64,000 nucleotides of DNA from an uncultured Flavobacteriales bacterium (GCA_913063375.1 CAJXXR010000014.1:1-64000), one strand, 5' to 3'; positions 49,466 to 63,753 are shown, counted from the stretch's first letter. A program made the numbers and translations. Notes: a model not told the origin generated them from the letters alone.

Positions 49466-51580
49466 ATGAAAATTTCAAAAATTTTCTTGGGTTCTGCTCT
49501 TGTTTTGATGGCAGTATCAACAGCTGTTGCCCAATCGAAGAGAACAAGGAAAGCAGATGCGGCATATACAAATGCCGAGTTTCATAAGGCCAAAGAACTG
49601 TATAAGTCAGCTTATTCTAGATCGGGAGATAAGAACGAGAAGAAGTACATTAGTTTTCAAATGGCTCAATGTGCTCGTAGAACTGGGAATTACAGACAAG
49701 CTGAAAATTATTTCAAACGTACTGTAAAGATGCGTTATGATGATCCTATCGCATTGTTATACCTAGCTCAGGCTCAACAGAACCTTTCTAAGTATGAGGA
49801 CGCTAAAGAGAATTTCACGAAATATTCTAGTATGGTTCCTGGAGACGTTCGTGGAACTGAAGGGTTTGATGGTTGTGTCTATGCATTAGAAATGTTAGGC
49901 AACCCTACTCAATACATCGTTGAAAATGCAAAGACATTAAATTCACGTGGTTTTGATTATTCTCCAGCTTGGGGAAAGAAGGATTATTCTGTTTTATTCT
50001 TTGCGACTACTAGAGAAGGGGTGATTGGAACAAGAACTTCTGATCAAACGGGTCAATATTTTGCAGATATCTGGGCTTCTGAAGTTGAAAAGAAGAGAAA
50101 AAAGAGAAGCAGAACAGCTAAGAAAAAGACAGGACCTAAATGGGTTACTCCAGTTTCATTAGGTGAGTTTGGTTCATCAGATAAAGGTGAAGAGACTATT
50201 AATACAAAACATGAAGAAGGTTCAGTGAGTTTGAACTCTCGTGCCAATGTAATGTATTACTCGCAGGCGGTATATGAAAAGAAACAATATGAAGGTCGTA
50301 GAATCTTTGTCTCCAAAAGAAAAGGTGGAGGCTGGGAAGAAGGTACGGAAGTAGCTTTCCCTGCTGAAAATGCTGACTCTACAAATTTCTTCGATTATAC
50401 ACATCCAGCGATTCATCCAGATGAGAAAACATTATTCTTTGTTGCTGATCTAGAAGGTGGATATGGTGGTACTGATATCTGGTACTCTATTTACGACAAG
50501 CGTAAAAAGAAATGGACGAAACCTAAAAATGTAGGTCCAGAAGTAAATACTGCTGAAAATGAAGCTTTCCCAACTGTTCATTTAGATGGGACATTGTTCT
50601 TTGCTTCTAATGGTCATTCTGGATTAGGTGGTTATGACCTTTACCGTGCAGAGATGAAATCTAGCCGTTATGGGAATGTGAAAAATATGGGTTCTCCTAT
50701 TAATTCATCTTATGACGACTTTGGATTAATCTTCAAAGGAAACGACTATAAAGAAGGATTCATGACTTCAAACCGTAAAGGTGGAAAAGGATTGGATGAT
50801 ATCTATACTGTTAAGTTATTGGGTACGCTTTTCAAAGTTCATGGTCAACTGATTGATCAAGAAAAGAATGAGCCAATGGCCGGTGTTACTGTTAAGTTGG
50901 AAGGTACAAACGGTCAAGTTATTGACGTTACTACAGATAAAGAAGGGAATTATTCTTTCGATCCTGAGCAGTTAGAGAAGGATGTAGATTATGATCTTAG
51001 CTTTATAGCTGATGGTTTTAAAGGAAATGTTCAAAATTTCTCTACAAAAAATCTAACCATTAATGATTTTGAAAAGACAGATGAAGGATACCTTCGTGAA
51101 GTGTTGGTTGATGCTTCATTGATTAGAGATCGTCTTCCTGTAGTATTACCTCATATTGAATATGATTTCAATAGTGCTGATTTACGTCCTAGCGCTATGA
51201 CAGATCTTGATCACCTTGCTAGGGTTCTTGAAACAAATCCAGAGTTGAGAATCAAATTGAGAGCACACACAGATCATATCGGAAATGAATCAGGAAATCA
51301 AGAGCTGTCTCAGAAAAGAGCACAAGCCTGTGTTGATTATCTAATTTCTAAAGGAATTTCTGCTGAAAGATTGGAAGCACAAGGTATGGGTGAGTCAGAG
51401 CCTTATACAATGACTGAAGACGATGGTTATTTGAAAAAAGCAACTAAGTTGACAGCGAAGTATGTAACTTCTATCCGTTATAAGAAATGGAGCGATAAAG
51501 CACGTCAGTATAACCGTAGAACGGATTTTGAAACTTTGGAGCCACTAGTTATTAAAGAAGATAAATTTGGAGAGTACTAG
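49466..51580 (+). CDS. PorE-like envelope protein: TPR, PD40 propeller, regulatory-like domain, OmpA
   Basis: The 704-residue protein has a signal peptide (MKISKIFLGSALVLMAVSTAVA). Domains in order: TPRs (about 30-125), WD40-like PD40 propeller (about 165-440; DYSPAWGKKDYSVLFFAT, HPDEKTLFFVADLEGGYGGTDIWYS), a carboxypeptidase-regulatory-like domain (about 455-535; AGVTVKLEGTNGQVIDVTTDKEGNYSF) and an OmpA peptidoglycan-binding domain (from about 560; IEYDFNSADLRPSAM, AHTDHIGNESGNQELSQKRA). PorE of Porphyromonas gingivalis, which ties the T9SS to the cell wall, has this order. PorE is a lipoprotein, but no lipobox is seen here, and Bacteroidota carry several such paralogs. Confidence 0.82.
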   Translation: MKISKIFLGSALVLMAVSTAVAQSKRTRKADAAYTNAEFHKAKELYKSAYSRSGDKNEKKYISFQMAQCARRTGNYRQAENYFKRTVKMRYDDPIALLYLAQAQQNLSKYEDAKENFTKYSSMVPGDVRGTEGFDGCVYALEMLGNPTQYIVENAKTLNSRGFDYSPAWGKKDYSVLFFATTREGVIGTRTSDQTGQYFADIWASEVEKKRKKRSRTAKKKTGPKWVTPVSLGEFGSSDKGEETINTKHEEGSVSLNSRANVMYYSQAVYEKKQYEGRRIFVSKRKGGGWEEGTEVAFPAENADSTNFFDYTHPAIHPDEKTLFFVADLEGGYGGTDIWYSIYDKRKKKWTKPKNVGPEVNTAENEAFPTVHLDGTLFFASNGHSGLGGYDLYRAEMKSSRYGNVKNMGSPINSSYDDFGLIFKGNDYKEGFMTSNRKGGKGLDDIYTVKLLGTLFKVHGQLIDQEKNEPMAGVTVKLEGTNGQVIDVTTDKEGNYSFDPEQLEKDVDYDLSFIADGFKGNVQNFSTKNLTINDFEKTDEGYLREVLVDASLIRDRLPVVLPHIEYDFNSADLRPSAMTDLDHLARVLETNPELRIKLRAHTDHIGNESGNQELSQKRAQACVDYLISKGISAERLEAQGMGESEPYTMTEDDGYLKKATKLTAKYVTSIRYKKWSDKARQYNRRTDFETLEPLVIKEDKFGEY

Positions 51581-54146: not shown

Positions 54147-55397
54147 TTATAGAACTGCAGTAGAAGCATATTGGATACTATATATAAAGGCGGATATTGA
54201 AACGAATAAACCTGCCACAAATACAATATAACTTATACGTAGTAATTTGTATTTTCGATGTAATACTATCCCCAAAAAATAGAGATCCCTCGATAGACTT
54301 CTATACAAATAGTCTTTATCCTGCATTAATTCTTGTATTCCCCATTCAAAATCATCCAAAGGCATTTTGTGAAAATTACCAAAAAACAGGATATTCCCCT
54401 CTTTATTCGCTATTTTCTCTTTAGATAATAAGCCGTGGGAGGTTTGTGGAATGGTTGATAAAATTGATATGATTACAGTCGCAATTGTAAATACCAATAA
54501 GATAATACAAGGGTAGATTAGAAAAGGGTTGGTGTCCAGTTTGGGAAATAATGCCGATAATACAATTGAAATGATAATGGCATTGACAGAGATTAGGGTA
54601 TTGGCTTTATTGTCCGCAAGACGACTAAGATTTAGATGGTTTCTCAAGGAAACTCTAAACATGGTTTCGATTCCTTTTTCAGGGATATCTGAATTTTTCT
54701 TCTTTTTCTTTTTCTTTGTTTTTTCAGCAGGATCTTCGGAAGTCTTTTCCGAATTTTCAGTTGGAAGTTCTACTTCTTTGTCCTGTATATTATTCGTTGT
54801 TGGTTCATCTGTCTTTAACTGATCTTCCAATTTTTGAATATTCTCCATTTTTTGTGGTCGTAAATGTGTCTTTGCAAAATCTGTGTAGTACTTATGAGCT
54901 CGAAGAAATTTGCAACAGGATCTATTCCATTCTTCATCGGATTGAATATGGGCATTCATCTTTGCCATTTCTTCCTTTAAATTCTTGTAAATAGACATGT
55001 AGTTTTCATCACCCAAGTGAGCTAGATCGGCATCTTTCATAATCTTTTGTGCCAAGTCTTCAGGTTCTTTGGTCAGGTTAGTCACCATGATAAGTTCCTT
55101 GATACGATCAATACCTACTCTTGGATAATCTCGTTTAGTAAGATAATCATCCACCGCTTGTGCACTTCTCTCTTCATGGTTGATAGCTCCTCCTAAATAG
55201 CCAATGTCGTGGAATAAGGCCGCTATTGCAATCCATTCTTTCTCCTGCTCATTTACCGCTGAGTTATTGGTAATCCTCATGGCGGAGTTATAAACAAATT
55301 CTGTATGATCCCAATTGTGATACATCAGCTCTTTCTTTGAAGACGCTAATTCAAATTGTGATTTTACAAAAGTATATGATTCATCGATTAATGACAT
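54147..55397 (-). CDS. HD phosphohydrolase fused to a Pycsar-effector-like membrane domain
   Basis: The 416-residue protein has two parts. Residues 20-180 are an HD phosphohydrolase domain with metal residues His31 (WDHTEFV), His63-Asp64 (LFHDIGYLGG) and Asp122 or Asp124 (KDADLAHLG). A charged linker (about 185-240, with eight Lys in a row) leads to a C-terminal membrane domain like PycTM, the effector of Pycsar: LRNHLNLSRLADNKANTLISV is the hallmark, followed by helices at about 267-285, 291-312 and 388-410. Such proteins are common in Bacteroidota and may cleave or sense a nucleotide. The gene is last in a four-gene unit beginning with a cyclase. Confidence 0.85.
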   Translation of the reverse strand: MSLIDESYTFVKSQFELASSKKELMYHNWDHTEFVYNSAMRITNNSAVNEQEKEWIAIAALFHDIGYLGGAINHEERSAQAVDDYLTKRDYPRVGIDRIKELIMVTNLTKEPEDLAQKIMKDADLAHLGDENYMSIYKNLKEEMAKMNAHIQSDEEWNRSCCKFLRAHKYYTDFAKTHLRPQKMENIQKLEDQLKTDEPTTNNIQDKEVELPTENSEKTSEDPAEKTKKKKKKKNSDIPEKGIETMFRVSLRNHLNLSRLADNKANTLISVNAIIISIVLSALFPKLDTNPFLIYPCIILLVFTIATVIISILSTIPQTSHGLLSKEKIANKEGNILFFGNFHKMPLDDFEWGIQELMQDKDYLYRSLSRDLYFLGIVLHRKYKLLRISYIVFVAGLFVSISAFIYSIQYASTAVL

Positions 55398-55431: not shown

Positions 55432-58400
55432 TTAAAATAAGAATTTAGTTCCAAAACTAAAGAATTTCTCCTTGTCCGAAAATGACATGGTACCATTTAA
55501 AATGATAAAGTCCAATGCATTTATATAAAGACCTACTCCATGGCTCTTATGCCAAAGATCTGAATTTTCATTTGAATTCCAGACTTTCCCAAAATCATAA
55601 TGGGTGAGGAGACCTAATTGAAACGGTAAAATATAGTTTTTAATATAGATGATGTTGAATCTTAATTCAGAATTTTGATAAGCCATACTTTTTCCTGAAT
55701 ATCGATTTCTTGGTATTCCTCGAAAATTGGTATTACCATCTAAATAATTTGCTTGATGAAAAGGATACTTTCCAGACAATATATGGTACCCTCCCCTAAG
55801 TGCTAAAGATGTTGGAATAGGTATTTGTGGTAGTGGTAGGTATACACTTAAGTCTGCTGATAATCGTTGATATCTTAATGTGCTTTCCGAAAGGTTTTGG
55901 AATGCAGAGGCCTCAATACTTAATTCGATTCCTCTTTCTGGATTCAGTTTTTGGTCTTTGTTTTCTAAAATATATCGTACAAATAACCCTGTATAAAGCC
56001 CATCTTCACCTTCCAATAATTCTGCCCCTTCAGGAGTATTGGACTCATCATCAAATCCTACTTGAAGCGCGTCAATACCAATCTGAAATTTTTGCATTTG
56101 ATTATCAGAGGTGTTTTGAATGAATGGTCGTATTTTATTCCATTTAAGTCTTATTTGATTGTCATCTCCTGGAACCGATATTGTTTCATTCCCGGCTTCA
56201 TGGTAATCAAATATTAATGGATGTCTGAGAGTTGCACTCCCAGCGAAATCCCATTTACCTAGCAACTCTGTAAATTGAAATTTATAATCTAGGTTAAAAG
56301 CATTCGTTGCGGATACATTTGCCGTTAAATGATGTAATGTTTTGAAAGGATTCTTTTTGAAACCTCTAATTTTCCATTGAAATCCACCTCCTAAGAATAG
56401 GCCGTCGTCAACGTTATAACCAACAGATGGCAACGGAAGCATCACATCATAAGCAAAGGATTCACGATCATAATCGTAGGCATCAATTGTATTTCGAATA
56501 AACACTTTTGTCTCCTTAGATTTTTGGATTTTGTTTTCACCTTTATTACTGTCATAGATATAGGTCTTCTTTGCCCATTGTGTACTATTTGATGTGTCTT
56601 CAATCTTATCCTTCTCCGTTCCACCAATTATTCTAACAAGGATGGTTTTCTCTACATCTCCGGAAATTTTGTATTCATCATTTCCATCTAGCCCGTAAAT
56701 ACATATTTCCTCCGTTTCCTCACCATGAAAAATTCGGTGGTATATTTTCTTTTTGGCTTTCTTCTTTCCCTTTTTTCGTTTAAAAACACTGACTTCAACC
56801 CTGTTGCTGTCCAGTCTTTTTATGTCAAAATAATCGTTTTCTAGCGTCCCAATAATGTCTACAGTTTTAGCTAATACGCTATAATACCTGGAGGCAAATT
56901 CAGTAAGGTGTCCTCGTCGAGATTTTAGCGTTTCATAGAGATCTTTTCCATTATATTGATAGGCGGCATTGGGTAGTTGTTTGATGGACAATTGCAGTAC
57001 TGAGTCCGAAAGTTCATTTTGCATAGAGTCGGCCACAGACATCCATTCTTCTAAGGTAGCTTCATTTAGAAATGAGCGATCAAAATATCTGGCATTAAAA
57101 TTTTGACCTTCAATATCTCTAATGTCGTCAGAAAATGGTTGGAATTTACGTAGTAACCATTTCCGATTTGCAAGGCTTGGAACTAGACCGTCAAATTTGA
57201 AAAATACCTGGTCACGGTCTCGGGGAATTGGCTTATAATAGGTATTCTTACCTTTTTTGAAAGATGCCCATCTCCATTGATCGTCATGTCTGTCCCAGTC
57301 TGACATCAACATATCCAATAATCTTGCTCTCAGAATGGAATATTTATCTAGTTTATGCGATTCATCCTTTTGGATTTTTTCGATCAACTTAGCGTAATTA
57401 ATAACCCTCTTTGAATTTCCAAAATTCGAAGCATGGCTCATATCTCCATCTGGACGTTCCTCAAATAAACACAAGGTGCCACCAAAGTCTTCTCGGTAAT
57501 CTCCCAGGATTGGATCGTCTGGAACTATTACTAGTTTGGGTTGTGAATAATATACTCCAACTGCATTGGCTAATGGAGGGACACATACAGCTGCATAGGG
57601 ATGAGATCCAGCAAGTCCATCCTGCAGAATGTCTTTAGCTAAAGTGTTTTGTAATACTCGTCCAAGTAGGAGGCTTGCATCTTTATTGATGGTTCTAAGA
57701 ACATATTCTTGTCCATCCATACCTTTTAAGCGCAGGGATTTTGTTTGCATTCCTCCACCTTTTTTTATCGGAACTAGTCCTCCTTTTTCAAAATGAATGT
57801 CTAGGTATGAAACCTCAATTGGAAGATTCCAAATATCTCTATTCAAATCACCGAAGAAAATTCTTTTAGTCTTCCCTGCTGCATAACTGGAATTAGGGAT
57901 TACGGTATCAACTTTTCCTTTATAAGACTGTTTTGGGATGGCCTCTGATAAGACCGTATTTAGTTTTTCACTTTTGAATAGACGTTTTTTATAAACCAAT
58001 TTATGATCTTCGGTCATTTCTGGGCTGTAGAAACTCAACCATACTTCACCATTTTTATGATAATCAACTTTGGCAAATCCTTTTCTTTCTGCTCCAAACT
58101 GAAGCTTTTGGTTTCCTTTCAGATAAGAGGTTTTTGAGCCAGAGCCGCTAACGATATAGTGATTGTTTTTTTCTTTACGGTACTGAAGGTTATGCTCATG
58201 ACCTGCAACATATATAATGTTGTCATATTCTTCAAATACTTTAGTAAAGGACCTAACCATATCCTGGTATACTGGATGGGTAATATCTTGTCTATGTCCA
58301 AGGAGTTTTCTGTACATAGGATAGATACTTCCTATAACTGGCATAGGAATGAATAAGTTCGAATTGATGTTTTTTAAAGGGAATAAATGATCTGAAAAGG

Positions 58401-59118
58401 CAAATTTCCCACCATGAACTCCGTTGCTATACATGGGATGGTGCCCTGCAATTATGATGTTTTTATGTCTGTATTTTTTTAAGACGTCCTTCAGTTGAGC
58501 TAAAAGTTCTTCTCTTGTTTGACTAGTACATCCATCTTTCTGACCTTTCGCTTTTTTATAGGGATGTAACCACCACTGTGTGTCAAGAATAATCATCACC
58601 AAATTGGATTCTAACTTCATTACCTTTGGTCCAGGGCAACCTCCATCTGGTAGAAATACATTTCCTCGATCAAGGTACTTCTCAACATATTTTTCCTGTC
58701 GTTGAACAAATTTCCAACCTTTTTCAGTTCCTCTTTTCCAATCATGATTCCCCGGTATGATTGCAATCCTTCCTTTGAATTCTTTTAGAATATCTAACTG
58801 AGCATTTAAGTTAGCCTCATCCTGACTGCGTTGTTCATGCTTCTTACCATGAAGACCTTCTGGATAAATATTGTCACCTAGAAAAACAATCGAGGAATGT
58901 TCATCTTCTTCATTGATTAATCGTTGAAGCAGTTGAAGGTTTTCCTTTGATTTTATTGGTGTTTCTCCCGCATCTCCTATAAAATAGGTACTATGAATAA
59001 TGGGGGAGGTGCTGGCTGTACTGATCCATTCCTTTTCTGAATGTTTCAAAAAGTCCTGACTTGTTTTACAAGAAGGAAGTATCAGTAATAAACTTATAAT
59101 TAATATTCTTTTCATCAT
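55432..59118 (-). CDS. Lipoprotein: calcineurin-like phosphoesterase, kinase-like segment, Omp85-type barrel
   Basis: A 1228-residue exported lipoprotein (lipobox LLILPSC, Cys17). Residues 40-380 are a metallophosphoesterase of the purple-acid-phosphatase type: Asp49 (IGDAGE), Asp82 (LGDNIYPEG), Asn124-His125-Asp126 (PGNHDW), His226-His227 (AGHHP), and His307 and His309 (GHEHN). The middle (about 460-660) has EYVLRTINKD and SDWDRHDDQWRW (606-617), with PIPRDRDQVFF, a pattern reminding me of HipA/Fam20-type kinases, but the fold is unproven. From about 860 an outer-membrane barrel follows with the Omp85 loop motif NFRGIPRNRY (Arg1133). Start and stop overlap the neighbour by 4 bases. The substrate is unknown. 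Confidence 0.8.
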   Translation of the reverse strand: MMKRILIISLLLILPSCKTSQDFLKHSEKEWISTASTSPIIHSTYFIGDAGETPIKSKENLQLLQRLINEEDEHSSIVFLGDNIYPEGLHGKKHEQRSQDEANLNAQLDILKEFKGRIAIIPGNHDWKRGTEKGWKFVQRQEKYVEKYLDRGNVFLPDGGCPGPKVMKLESNLVMIILDTQWWLHPYKKAKGQKDGCTSQTREELLAQLKDVLKKYRHKNIIIAGHHPMYSNGVHGGKFAFSDHLFPLKNINSNLFIPMPVIGSIYPMYRKLLGHRQDITHPVYQDMVRSFTKVFEEYDNIIYVAGHEHNLQYRKEKNNHYIVSGSGSKTSYLKGNQKLQFGAERKGFAKVDYHKNGEVWLSFYSPEMTEDHKLVYKKRLFKSEKLNTVLSEAIPKQSYKGKVDTVIPNSSYAAGKTKRIFFGDLNRDIWNLPIEVSYLDIHFEKGGLVPIKKGGGMQTKSLRLKGMDGQEYVLRTINKDASLLLGRVLQNTLAKDILQDGLAGSHPYAAVCVPPLANAVGVYYSQPKLVIVPDDPILGDYREDFGGTLCLFEERPDGDMSHASNFGNSKRVINYAKLIEKIQKDESHKLDKYSILRARLLDMLMSDWDRHDDQWRWASFKKGKNTYYKPIPRDRDQVFFKFDGLVPSLANRKWLLRKFQPFSDDIRDIEGQNFNARYFDRSFLNEATLEEWMSVADSMQNELSDSVLQLSIKQLPNAAYQYNGKDLYETLKSRRGHLTEFASRYYSVLAKTVDIIGTLENDYFDIKRLDSNRVEVSVFKRKKGKKKAKKKIYHRIFHGEETEEICIYGLDGNDEYKISGDVEKTILVRIIGGTEKDKIEDTSNSTQWAKKTYIYDSNKGENKIQKSKETKVFIRNTIDAYDYDRESFAYDVMLPLPSVGYNVDDGLFLGGGFQWKIRGFKKNPFKTLHHLTANVSATNAFNLDYKFQFTELLGKWDFAGSATLRHPLIFDYHEAGNETISVPGDDNQIRLKWNKIRPFIQNTSDNQMQKFQIGIDALQVGFDDESNTPEGAELLEGEDGLYTGLFVRYILENKDQKLNPERGIELSIEASAFQNLSESTLRYQRLSADLSVYLPLPQIPIPTSLALRGGYHILSGKYPFHQANYLDGNTNFRGIPRNRYSGKSMAYQNSELRFNIIYIKNYILPFQLGLLTHYDFGKVWNSNENSDLWHKSHGVGLYINALDFIILNGTMSFSDKEKFFSFGTKFLF

Positions 59119-59909
59119 GGAATAGAGGTGAAATGCATTATTTGTGCTTTTCCAGATTTTCCTTCACTAGCAATGTATAATTCTCCATTTTTAGAAAAAC
59201 TGATACCTTCAGGTTGTTTATAAATGGTTTTATCAAGATTGTAATAATGGATCAATTTGCCATTGTAATCTAAGCAAATTAACTTTTTCCCTACAGATGC
59301 CAGAATATAAATATAACCATCAGCGGGATTTATAGCAATTCCAGAAGGTAAAAGTCCTGCATTTCTATAAATACCAATTTCCTTTTTGGCTAATTTGATG
59401 ATTGGTTTAAGTAGGTATAGGTTGGAGTTTAAATCAAAGCTGTAAATGTTTATATACTTGTTTTTCTTTTTTGAAGGATGGTCTTTTGATACTAGAAGTA
59501 GTCTATTGTTGATTTCATCATGGCATATTCCTTCGAATTCTACAGCCGCTTTTCCAGGGAATCGATGGATTACTTTATCTTCTCCTAAATGATTTACACT
59601 AACAATGGTTCCATTACTTTTTAAAACAAAAAACCTTTTAGAAGTGGTCGCAATACCCTCATAATCTCCTTTTTTTGAAAAAGAAATTTTGCTTGACTTT
59701 TCAAAAGAACCAATTCCTAAGCTGTAGATAATGCCTTTCTCATCTTGGATGGCCACCATTTTACTTTGATCGATATAGGACAGGCCTGAAATTTCTTTTA
59801 ATTCCTTTTTTAAAGGATAGATATGATCAGGTCTTCTCAGTGCATGGTCTTGAATCATGGAACATCCAAATAGGCCAAGAAGGAAAAGGGATGTGAATTG
59901 TTTAATCAT
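59115..59909 (-). CDS. Lipoprotein beta-propeller, SdiA-regulated-like
   Basis: The 264-residue product has a lipobox (LLGLFGC, Cys16) and then about six repeats of a propeller strand pattern: LKEISGLSYIDQSKMVAIQDEKG, DYEGIATTSKRFFVLK, AVEFEGICHDEINNRLLLVSKD, SGIAINPADGYIYILAS and PEGISFSKNGELYIASEG. This is the pattern of the SdiA-regulated family (phytase/strictosidine-like propellers). Its ligand is unknown. It overlaps the cyclase gene by 8 bases and the phosphoesterase-barrel gene by 4 bases, so all three are translationally coupled. It may sense or bind a phosphorylated ligand in the periplasm. Confidence 0.78.
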   Translation of the reverse strand: MIKQFTSLFLLGLFGCSMIQDHALRRPDHIYPLKKELKEISGLSYIDQSKMVAIQDEKGIIYSLGIGSFEKSSKISFSKKGDYEGIATTSKRFFVLKSNGTIVSVNHLGEDKVIHRFPGKAAVEFEGICHDEINNRLLLVSKDHPSKKKNKYINIYSFDLNSNLYLLKPIIKLAKKEIGIYRNAGLLPSGIAINPADGYIYILASVGKKLICLDYNGKLIHYYNLDKTIYKQPEGISFSKNGELYIASEGKSGKAQIMHFTSIP

Positions 59910-60969
59910 AATTGAGAGATGTTTTCCAAATTGATACCTTTTCTATTTTTCCTTTTAATTGATGGGTTCCTATTGAAGTATGCTTTAAAAGAATGTCTTT
60001 ATTCAATCTATTTTTAAGCCTATCGGAGATGAGTAAGTTAGCCTGATAGGTAGCGCATAATGATTGTATGCGAGAAGTTGTGTTTAGGATATCTCCGTGA
60101 TAACAGATTTCACTTTTCAATTCTCCAACTTCCGTTACAGTAACTTGGCCGATATGTGCACTTGCCTTAAATACGGGAACAACCCCATATTGCTCCATAT
60201 AATAGTCGGAATTACTATTTATTTTTGCCTGGAATGCATAAAATGCATGAATAACGTTATTATTTTTAAGTCCTTTTATAGGGTTCCAATTTAAGACAAC
60301 TTCATCACCTACATATTGATAAACTTCTGCTGAGAAATCGGCAACAATGGCTACGTCTTTAAAGCAATCTCTAAGAAGTTGACTGTACTTTATATTACCT
60401 ATTTCTTCTGCTATTCTTGTAGAGGACGTCAAATCTACGAACATAAAAATACGCTCTATCTGTCTAGGTTTGTAAAATTTTCCAATCATCAATTTCCATA
60501 GATTTCCAGATCCTAGCTTTCTATCCATCTCCCGCATAAACTCAATTAGGAAACTCACCATGAACCCATAAATTATGAAGACATGATTCCCTGTTGTGAA
60601 ATCTTCAAAGCTTAGTTGAATTTGTAAAAGTTTGTTTAAACTGAAGATCGCTAGATAGGTTATTATACTAAGAGCGGATAAGTTGAGAAGGGTTATTAAT
60701 ATGAAAAATAAACCTAGTGATAGTACATTACGAAAATACTTGGCTATATATAAATCAATGATGGAAAAAATGGTTCCTGCAGATATTCCTAAAACTATGA
60801 TTTGAAAAAATATGGTACGGGCGGCATTTATTTTGGTGATTCTATTTTGTTTAATAAGGTCTGCAATTTCATCGTTCCCTATATCATGTCTTAGGAATAT
60901 GAAAAATCCAATAGCTACAGACCATGCTAGAATATAAAATAATAAGATTCTTAAATTCTTTCTTTTCAT
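59902..60969 (-). CDS. Membrane-anchored class III nucleotide cyclase
   Basis: The 355-residue protein has an N-terminal membrane part with four or five helices (about 8-27, 52-76, 80-110, 129-145) and a class III cyclase domain from about 168. The metal ligands Asp179 (FMFVDLTSST) and Asp222 (VGDEVVLNW) are present, as are Asn296 and Arg300 of the transition-state pair (GDILNTTSR). Compared with mycobacterial Rv1625c, the adenine-selecting Lys296 and Asp365 positions are Gln218 and Cys289, so ATP preference cannot be assumed. The family is common in Bacteroidota, mostly untested. It is first in a four-gene unit. Confidence 0.87.
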   Translation of the reverse strand: MKRKNLRILLFYILAWSVAIGFFIFLRHDIGNDEIADLIKQNRITKINAARTIFFQIIVLGISAGTIFSIIDLYIAKYFRNVLSLGLFFILITLLNLSALSIITYLAIFSLNKLLQIQLSFEDFTTGNHVFIIYGFMVSFLIEFMREMDRKLGSGNLWKLMIGKFYKPRQIERIFMFVDLTSSTRIAEEIGNIKYSQLLRDCFKDVAIVADFSAEVYQYVGDEVVLNWNPIKGLKNNNVIHAFYAFQAKINSNSDYYMEQYGVVPVFKASAHIGQVTVTEVGELKSEICYHGDILNTTSRIQSLCATYQANLLISDRLKNRLNKDILLKHTSIGTHQLKGKIEKVSIWKTSLNYD

Positions 60970-62670: not shown

Positions 62671-63729
62671 TTACTCCTGAAAGGCAGGATTGGTGATAAA
62701 TGTGGTGTCTGAAAGTGTGTGTAGAAAGGCTAAAAGATTGGCTTTTGCATCCTCTGTTAATAGTAATCCAGTTTCTGGATTTTTCATCAATGGGTCTAAG
62801 GTTGAGCTTGTATGCCCACCGGTATTGTAAAAGTCAATCACCTCTTCTAAGGTTTTAAAACGACCATCGTGCATATAAGGAGCTGAAAAAGCAATATTTC
62901 TAAGTGTTGGAGTCTTAAATTTCGCTTTATCCATTGGGTTTTGAGTAATTTCATAGAGACCAAGATCAGTCCAGTCTTCCTCTTTGTCTATTCCGTTATT
63001 GTGGAATAAATTGTCTGTTCCAAGTGGGAAGCCGTGACAATGGAAACAATCCGCTCCATTAGGATTCCCATCTATAGGTCCTTCAATATTAAACATGTCT
63101 AGTCCTGCAAATTCAGCAGCAGTTAAATTAACTTCACCTCTAAGGTATTTGTCGAATTTCGAATTACCAGAAATAAGTGTTCTTTCAAATTGAGCAATAG
63201 CTTTCGCTATAAGAATAGAATCTACCGTCTCAGTACCAAAGGCTTTTATAAATAGTGGGGGATATTGTGCATCATTTTGGATTTTCTCCACGGCATTTGG
63301 CCAAGTTTCATGCATTTCTATCGGATTTACAACTGGACCAAGCGCTTGGTCTTCTAGACTTTTTGCTCTCCCATCCCAAAAGAAATTATTTCCCCATAAT
63401 GCATTTACTATAGGCATGGAACTTCTATTTCCACTGATACCATCAATTCCTGTACTTACAGCCCCTGTATCTGAGAAGGCAAATGCTGGTTGATGACAAC
63501 TCCCACAAGATTGGCTGTTGTCTCCACTCAATTGCTTTTCATAAAACAATTTTTTCCCCAGTTTGACACCTTCAGCAGTCATAGGATTGTCCTCTGGAAT
63601 TTCAAATTGAGGAAAATTCATTGGTAAATCTATCGTATAGGGAGTGGCTGATGTGTCATCTGTGTCTCTATTGCAGGCAATAAAAAGACCTAAAAGAAGA
63701 AAAAAGGAAAAGGTTGATAAGGTTCTCAT
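62671..63729 (-). CDS. Di-haem cytochrome c peroxidase lipoprotein
   Basis: This 352-residue envelope protein has a lipobox (LGLFIAC, Cys19) and two c-type haem sites: CGSCH at residues 75-79 and CFHCH at 228-232. It follows the CcpA/MauG family, which reduces hydrogen peroxide with electrons from cytochromes: GKKLFYEKQLSGDNSQSC, WGNNFFWDGRAKSLEDQALGP, TPTLRNIAFSAPYMHDGRFKTLEEVIDFYN. It is probably attached to the periplasmic or outer membrane. It has its own promoter box (63754-63761); no terminator is clear. Confidence 0.94.
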   Translation of the reverse strand: MRTLSTFSFFLLLGLFIACNRDTDDTSATPYTIDLPMNFPQFEIPEDNPMTAEGVKLGKKLFYEKQLSGDNSQSCGSCHQPAFAFSDTGAVSTGIDGISGNRSSMPIVNALWGNNFFWDGRAKSLEDQALGPVVNPIEMHETWPNAVEKIQNDAQYPPLFIKAFGTETVDSILIAKAIAQFERTLISGNSKFDKYLRGEVNLTAAEFAGLDMFNIEGPIDGNPNGADCFHCHGFPLGTDNLFHNNGIDKEEDWTDLGLYEITQNPMDKAKFKTPTLRNIAFSAPYMHDGRFKTLEEVIDFYNTGGHTSSTLDPLMKNPETGLLLTEDAKANLLAFLHTLSDTTFITNPAFQE

Positions 63730-63753
63730 CTGGTATGTTAATTATTAATCTAC

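Follow-up and report, generated by a model that had tools for sequence, protein, structure and literature searches.

A Bacteroidota-wide outer-membrane protein that unites a purple-acid-phosphatase-like enzyme and an Omp85 barrel with an unclassified kinase-fold domain, encoded beside an HD-PycTM gene

The locus described here lies in a 64,000-nucleotide stretch of DNA from an uncultured Flavobacteriales bacterium (GCA_913063375.1 CAJXXR010000014.1:1-64000; hereafter the window), in which four genes form a minus-strand run: a nucleotide cyclase, an SdiA-regulated lipoprotein, the main gene, and HD-PycTM, an HD phosphohydrolase fused to a PycTM membrane domain (Table 1). The main gene, present as a single copy in the genome, is one uninterrupted open reading frame of 1228 aa with its ATG at 59118 and its stop at 55432, and orthologs of the protein are of equal length across Bacteroidota. 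The intact frame and the lipobox agree with the single 1228-residue lipoprotein described in an earlier note on this DNA; the lipid-anchor Cys is invariant in 15 order-level relatives, and about half of the wider family set carries an ordinary signal peptide in place of the lipobox. An AlphaFold2 model of residues 29-1228 reached a pLDDT of 90.1 and a pTM of 0.84. Overall, the product is a real outer-membrane protein, found throughout Bacteroidota, in which a purple-acid-phosphatase (PAP)-like enzyme and an Omp85 barrel flank an unclassified kinase-fold domain.

Table 1. Features of the main gene and its neighbours, with positions in the window and residues numbered along the main protein
Feature	Position	Strand	Basis or remark
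Whole gene	55432..59118	-	Lipoprotein signal, PAP-like phosphatase, kinase-fold domain, beta-rich linker, Omp85 barrel
Lipoprotein signal peptide	59068..59118	-	Lipobox ILPSC17, then CKTSQD
PAP-like metallophosphatase, residues 40-377	57988..59001	-	Pfam Metallophos, PDB profile matches, fold match
Kinase-fold domain, about residues 400-751	56866..57921	-	AlphaFold2 model, Foldseek, CotH profile match
Catalytic-loop motif DWDRHDDQW, residues 607-615 (DRHxxQ; D609 putative catalytic Asp)	57274..57300	-	100% conserved; aligned with CtkA DRHNGNW
Putative metal-binding motif PRDRDQ, residues 632-637 (D634/D636, DFG-Asp equivalent)	57208..57225	-	Asp 100% conserved; aligned with CotH xWDxNxxFG
Beta-rich linker from kinase C-lobe to barrel, residues 752-875, where POTRA would stand	56494..56865	-	AlphaFold2 secondary structure all beta
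16-stranded Omp85 barrel, residues 892-1228	55435..56445	-	Model strands; BamA fold matches
NFRG (Omp85 L6 motif), residues 1131-1134, between strands 11 and 12	55717..55728	-	Model position; R1133, G1134 invariant
HD phosphohydrolase fused to PycTM (Pycsar effector) membrane domain	54147..55397	-	Pfam PycTM 1.5e-30, HD 1.7e-6; 34 bp downstream of main gene
SdiA-regulated beta-propeller lipoprotein	59115..59909	-	Pfam 2.9e-8; 4 bp overlap (ATGA) with main gene
Membrane class III nucleotide cyclase	59902..60969	-	Pfam Guanylate_cyc 2.2e-6; 8 bp overlap with SdiA-regulated gene

The N-terminal enzyme matches Pfam Metallophos (3e-7 over residues 46-243) and contains all five PAP motifs of the set used here (GDxG, GDxxY, GNH(D/E), HH, and GHxH), namely GDAG at residues 48-51, GDNIY at 81-85, GNHD at 123-126, HH at 226-227, and GHEH at 306-309. 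The complete calcineurin-type metal site previously read from the sequence is indeed present, and it is more exactly of the PAP type. Additionally, the family profile retrieved human TRAP/PAP from the PDB at 6e-12, and the full-length model matched the fold of the PAP relative GAP50 at 9e-11. Across 81 full-length relatives the metal ligands are largely retained; of the ten positions inspected, at least one differs in 17 relatives, and several ligands are missing in about eight.

At the other end of the protein, the full model forms a barrel of 16 strands whose top fold matches are BamA structures (9e-11). Pfam Omp85 matches residues 998-1191 at 5e-11, above the cut-off, and NCBIfam Omp85_fam gives 4e-25 with 89 bits, below the model cut-off of 200. 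The NFRG sequence occupies the L6 position, as an Omp85-type barrel with this loop motif would have it; relative to the strict L6 consensus (V/I)RG(F/Y), R and G are kept and the flanking residues differ. No POTRA domain was detected, either by a Pfam search of the protein or in the model, which is all-beta at residues 752-875. POTRA is known to be missing from some Omp85 subfamilies (PMC4104836).

Between these two parts lies a domain whose AlphaFold2 model, based on an 80-sequence alignment, has a pLDDT of 92.8 and a pTM of 0.92. A Foldseek search of the PDB placed kinase-fold proteins at the top of the list for this model: CtkA (2.0e-6, probability 1.00), HipA (2.3e-5), Legionella HipT (4.3e-5), CotH (7.7e-5), COQ8A (1.4e-4), PI4KIIalpha (2.3e-4), the Fam20-type Golgi casein kinase (4.3e-4), and RIO2 (6.5e-4), with TM-scores that are modest (0.3-0.5) because of insertions. 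PADLOC, NCBIfam, and Pfam assigned nothing to the domain, and Pfam gave no credible family match in the window protein, 15 relatives, or 80 relatives. In particular, HipA PF07804 had no match in any of these three sets, and CotH PF08757 had none at E up to 10 in the window protein or the 15 relatives and did not appear in the family lists (E up to 1) of the 80 relatives. The best PDB profile match was again CtkA, at an E of 0.11 that is not significant alone, with DRHNGNW aligned under DRHxDQW. When compared by hhalign with a CotH profile built from CotH proteins of Bacteroidota genomes, the middle-domain profile scored 38.3 (E 3.5e-4 for a single comparison), with DWDRH and PRDRDQAF aligned to the counterpart motifs of CotH. 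None of 40 column-shuffled controls exceeded 21.0, and CotH versus HipA, two accepted kinase families used as a yardstick, scored 31.0. The HipA profile comparison scored 20.0, below its shuffled-null maximum of 23.3. Membership in HipA was rejected on this score, and membership in CotH, to which the relation is a distant one, was rejected because there is no Pfam match. The best explanation of the model and the profiles is that the middle domain would represent a new family related to CotH/HipA/Fam20 kinases and described by no Pfam family. The kinase-like middle segment suggested by the earlier note is thus upheld by AlphaFold2 and Foldseek, with which the CotH profile comparison agrees; neither of the outcomes named there as contrary, a middle domain without a kinase fold or a barrel unrelated to Omp85, was found.

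Kinase-type features recognizable in the sequence include a catalytic Asp, a metal Asp, a candidate strand-3 Lys (K479, with R475), and a Gly-rich loop (G454-G455). The first two lie within SDWDRHDDQW (residues 606-615) and PRDRDQ (residues 632-637), where D607, W608, D609, R610, H611, Q614, D634, and D636 are 100% conserved in the 81 full-length relatives; the putative pocket residues G454, G455, R475, and K479 are likewise identical in all 81. Position D+5 of the kinase loop is an invariant Gln (Q614) in this set, not the metal-binding Asn that is found there in HipA and canonical kinases and, by profile alignment, in CtkA; Asn does occur at D+5 in locus L137 and a few divergent relatives. 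Because one of the two search patterns of the GTDB scan contained DWDRHxDQ and thereby biased the set of relatives, conservation was re-tested by a profile search without motif bias. In this search, 47/47 three-domain proteins kept an intact catalytic motif, and D609 and H611 were lost in several paralogues that are barrel-only or stand-alone. The alignments indicate that motif conservation in the relatives is beyond chance, and joint loss of catalytic residues in divergent paralogues is the pattern that would mark an enzyme family with pseudoenzyme branches, some of the phosphatase-less paralogues being predicted pseudokinases.

The family is large and its architecture varies. Full-length relatives (29-47% identity) were found in 14 of the 59 further genomes that were searched as relatives, at least 583 places throughout Bacteroidota were confirmed in GTDB, and the middle domain is present in 152/392 Bacteroidota genomes (about 40% of those sampled). 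Among the 150 matches listed, 109 fall in frames of at least 1100 aa, 36 in frames of 800-1000 aa, and five in frames below 600 aa. Domain profiles distinguish phosphatase-kinase-barrel proteins, kinase-barrel proteins, and a kinase-fold lipoprotein alone, and on a tree the phosphatase needs about six changes and the barrel two. In two loci (L132 and L133), three consecutive genes on one strand separately encode the kinase-fold part, the phosphatase, and the barrel, which argues that the three parts act together. Furthermore, kinase-barrel genes without the phosphatase (L136 and L140) retain the same partner genes, pointing to the kinase-fold domain as the core and the phosphatase as an option; L141, which starts at a contig edge, was left out as a natural case without phosphatase.

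The most constant of these partners is HD-PycTM, which was present in the fetched flanks of about 55 of 80 GTDB loci. The SdiA-regulated gene was near about 30 of the 80, nearly always directly upstream, and the cyclase family was found in about 24 of 80-81 loci, with eight further loci carrying DUF2652, which we take to be cyclase-like. Among 40 relatives, HD-PycTM (one protein of about 400-500 aa) lay within about 3 kb in 12/12 genomes with the main gene and was encoded in 0/28 of those without it. Across the phylum, 129 genomes had listed kinase-domain positions; a PycTM-family match, in some cases a shorter form without the HD domain, lay within 6 kb of the kinase domain in 94 of these and within 15 kb in 107. 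Conversely, the kinase-fold domain was present in 91 of 94 genomes with full-length HD-PycTM, a number that includes G188, G303, G325, G396, and G408, which lie outside the 150 matches listed but are positive in the 392-genome tally; such co-occurrence counts are inflated by the relatedness of the genomes. The adjacency of HD-PycTM at this scale is independent evidence of association, and the gene run is non-accidental. Pycsar as a defence system was also considered and appears unlikely: the PADLOC matches were restricted to neighbour genes. PycTM matched at 1.5e-30 and PycC weakly (4e-4), and the HD fusion and the phylum-wide conservation do not resemble a mobile defence system.

The N-terminal domains of Omp85 proteins are periplasmic. 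For PlpD, the analogue invoked in the earlier note, the patatin domain is exclusively periplasmic (PMC11116518), and a lipoprotein export signal has been defined for Bacteroidota, in which some such lipoproteins are flipped to the surface (PMC5080379). No such signal (of the C-X-K-(D/E)2 or SDDDD type) follows the lipidated Cys of the window protein, and among 41 lipobox-like members not one carries two acidic residues between +2 and +6, so that surface exposure by this route was rejected. Together with the half of the family that lacks a lipobox, these analogies and sequence features suggest that the enzyme parts probably face the periplasm rather than the cell surface. The surface enzyme proposed earlier has a precedent in the Bacteroidota lipoproteins that do flip, but the missing signal in every lipobox-bearing member examined, the ordinary signal peptides, and the periplasmic enzyme domain of PlpD make it very unlikely.

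The three domains with their folds, the conserved catalytic residues, and the conserved locus are observed by computation; catalytic activity and the periplasmic side are our inferences. The Omp85 barrel, with the lipid anchor in the window protein, would hold the enzyme in the outer membrane facing the periplasm; the kinase-fold domain, as the conserved catalytic core, would transfer a phosphoryl or nucleotidyl group to a substrate in the envelope; and the optional PAP-like domain would strip phosphate from that substrate or a related one. The enzyme would act in a conserved pathway with HD-PycTM, often also with the SdiA-regulated lipoprotein and the nucleotide cyclase. We hold this account, an outer-membrane-anchored, periplasm-facing enzyme whose kinase fold adds and whose phosphatase removes a phosphate-type group in an HD-PycTM pathway, to be somewhat probable. 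The invariant Gln at D+5, the modest TM-scores, and the HipA comparison within its null count against it. The phosphate donor is its largest difficulty, as no periplasmic ATP pool is known; where the ATP would come from is equally unsettled for the CotH of spore coats (PMC7821199).

Several other readings can be weighed against this account. The kinase-fold domain may be a pseudokinase or a ligand sensor that binds a nucleotide or phosphorylated ligand, leaving the phosphatase as the sole enzyme, and the replacement of Asn by Gln in the catalytic loop, the pseudokinase paralogues within the family, and the want of a known periplasmic ATP supply all speak for it; however, every metal and catalytic Asp of the three-domain form is 100% conserved, a stricter conservation than that of the phosphatase residues (17/81 deviate), and we regard this reading as rather unlikely. 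A role mainly in outer-membrane protein assembly or translocation, with the soluble domains substituting for POTRA, would suit an Omp85 barrel with an L6 motif and corresponds to the default view of odd Omp85 subfamilies in Heinz and Lithgow 2014 (PMC4104836). It appears quite improbable, given that no POTRA was detected, that the kinase-fold domain also exists without a barrel, that the active sites are conserved, and that PlpD provides a precedent for an Omp85 enzyme. As a narrower form of the preferred enzymatic explanation, the protein may be a polyphosphate or phosphate-acquisition device in which polyphosphate or a phosphorylated extracellular compound is the donor or substrate. PPK1 lies within 6 kb in 17/80 loci and SixA in eight, phytase-like and PAP2 neighbours occur, and PPK1 is encoded in 12/12 relatives with the main gene versus 9/28 without it, the last being weaker evidence because genome size confounds co-occurrence; yet PPK1 is common and is adjacent neither in the window genome nor in most relatives, and we consider the device rather unlikely. 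A trans-envelope signalling or phosphate-transfer pathway, in which an outer-membrane kinase-fold/phosphatase enzyme acting in the periplasm with a non-ATP donor (e.g. polyphosphate) would be coupled to a cytoplasmic cyclic-nucleotide module of class III cyclase and HD-PycTM, a housekeeping relative of Pycsar, is a speculative and distinctly unlikely extension.

The wider interest of the family lies in a kinase fold that is described by no Pfam family yet belongs to a large family in a compartment without a known ATP pool, in enzyme domains carried by a barrel class regarded mainly as assembly machinery, and in the protein's tie to a PycTM gene, whose type is known otherwise from defence against phages. 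Both phosphorylation of a reversible kind at the outer membrane and a role of PycTM outside defence can now be tested directly. The open-access library searched yielded no account of the kinase-fold domain, of its stand-alone forms, or of its association with HD-PycTM, and the conserved HD-PycTM locus of the kinase-fold gene is new here.

Among the closest known systems is a published grouping based on PF00149, the calcineurin-like phosphoesterase family. Heinz and Lithgow 2014 (PMC4104836) used it to define an Omp85 'Metallo' subfamily, which they called a metalloprotease, with a PF00149 domain on an Omp85 barrel without POTRA; its members, as described there, are very probably the same proteins as those studied here. 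Since PF00149 denotes a phosphoesterase, the pairing of phosphatase and barrel was already catalogued but mislabelled, and the published metalloprotease label is hereby corrected. The kinase-fold domain, the free-standing forms, and the conserved neighbours are absent from the 2014 main-text description. The new type of surface enzyme suggested by the earlier note is supported in part: the surface location is not supported and the phosphatase-Omp85 fusion had been catalogued, and no earlier description of the kinase-fold domain was found in the library searched. CotH (PF08757) and the HipA/CtkA kinases, the best fold and profile relatives of the middle domain, share the kinase fold and a D-x-H-x-x-(N/Q) loop with a metal Asp after it, but here there is no kinase Pfam match, Gln is invariant at D+5, and the domain is joined to a phosphatase and a barrel. 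The five PAP metal motifs and PDB profile matches to TRAP link the phosphatase to purple acid phosphatases, from which it differs in being part of a bacterial outer-membrane fusion and degenerate in some members. In Pycsar, a PycC cyclase is paired with a PycTM effector, and the partner gene here likewise carries PycTM, often with a cyclase nearby; in the present case, however, PycTM is fused to HD in a conserved chromosomal locus, with no evidence of phage defence. PlpD, a patatin-Omp85 protein, similarly carries an enzyme domain on a 16-stranded Omp85 barrel, whereas the protein described here bears two other enzyme folds in place of the patatin lipase, has no detected POTRA, and adds a lipid anchor.

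Stand-alone kinase-fold lipoproteins are paired on opposite strands at three loci (L130, L131, and L134), where one copy retains an intact DWDRH in its catalytic loop and the other carries DWSRR; each pair likely comprises an active protein and a pseudokinase. The divergent kinase-barrel proteins of loci L206-L217, which have lost the catalytic residues, are pseudokinase branches. Three CotH-family (PF08757) proteins are encoded in the genome holding the window, on contigs C11, C16, and C7.

PPK1 (polyphosphate kinase) is found near the main gene, often together with SixA, in 17 of the 80 GTDB loci (L020-L099), and in genome G005 a second PPK1 copy sits between the main gene and HD-PycTM.

Features in the window and example PPK1 loci
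Feature	Source	Position	Strand
TPR - PD40 - OmpA protein	window	49466-51580	+
HD-PycTM protein with poly-lysine stretch	window	54147-55397	-
Membrane class III nucleotide cyclase, heading the four-gene run	window	59902-60969	-
Di-haem cytochrome c peroxidase, MauG type	window	62674-63732	-
PPK1 locus	L020	3086-5104	
PPK1 locus	L092	3068-5101	

Elsewhere in the window, the TPR - PD40 - OmpA protein is of a kind linked in Bacteroidota to the cell envelope and to type IX secretion systems, and the peroxidase is apparently a lipoprotein. The cyclase shows weak similarity to PycC (PADLOC). The genetic partnership between HD-PycTM and the main gene extends throughout Bacteroidota, which suggests a role for PycTM outside defence.
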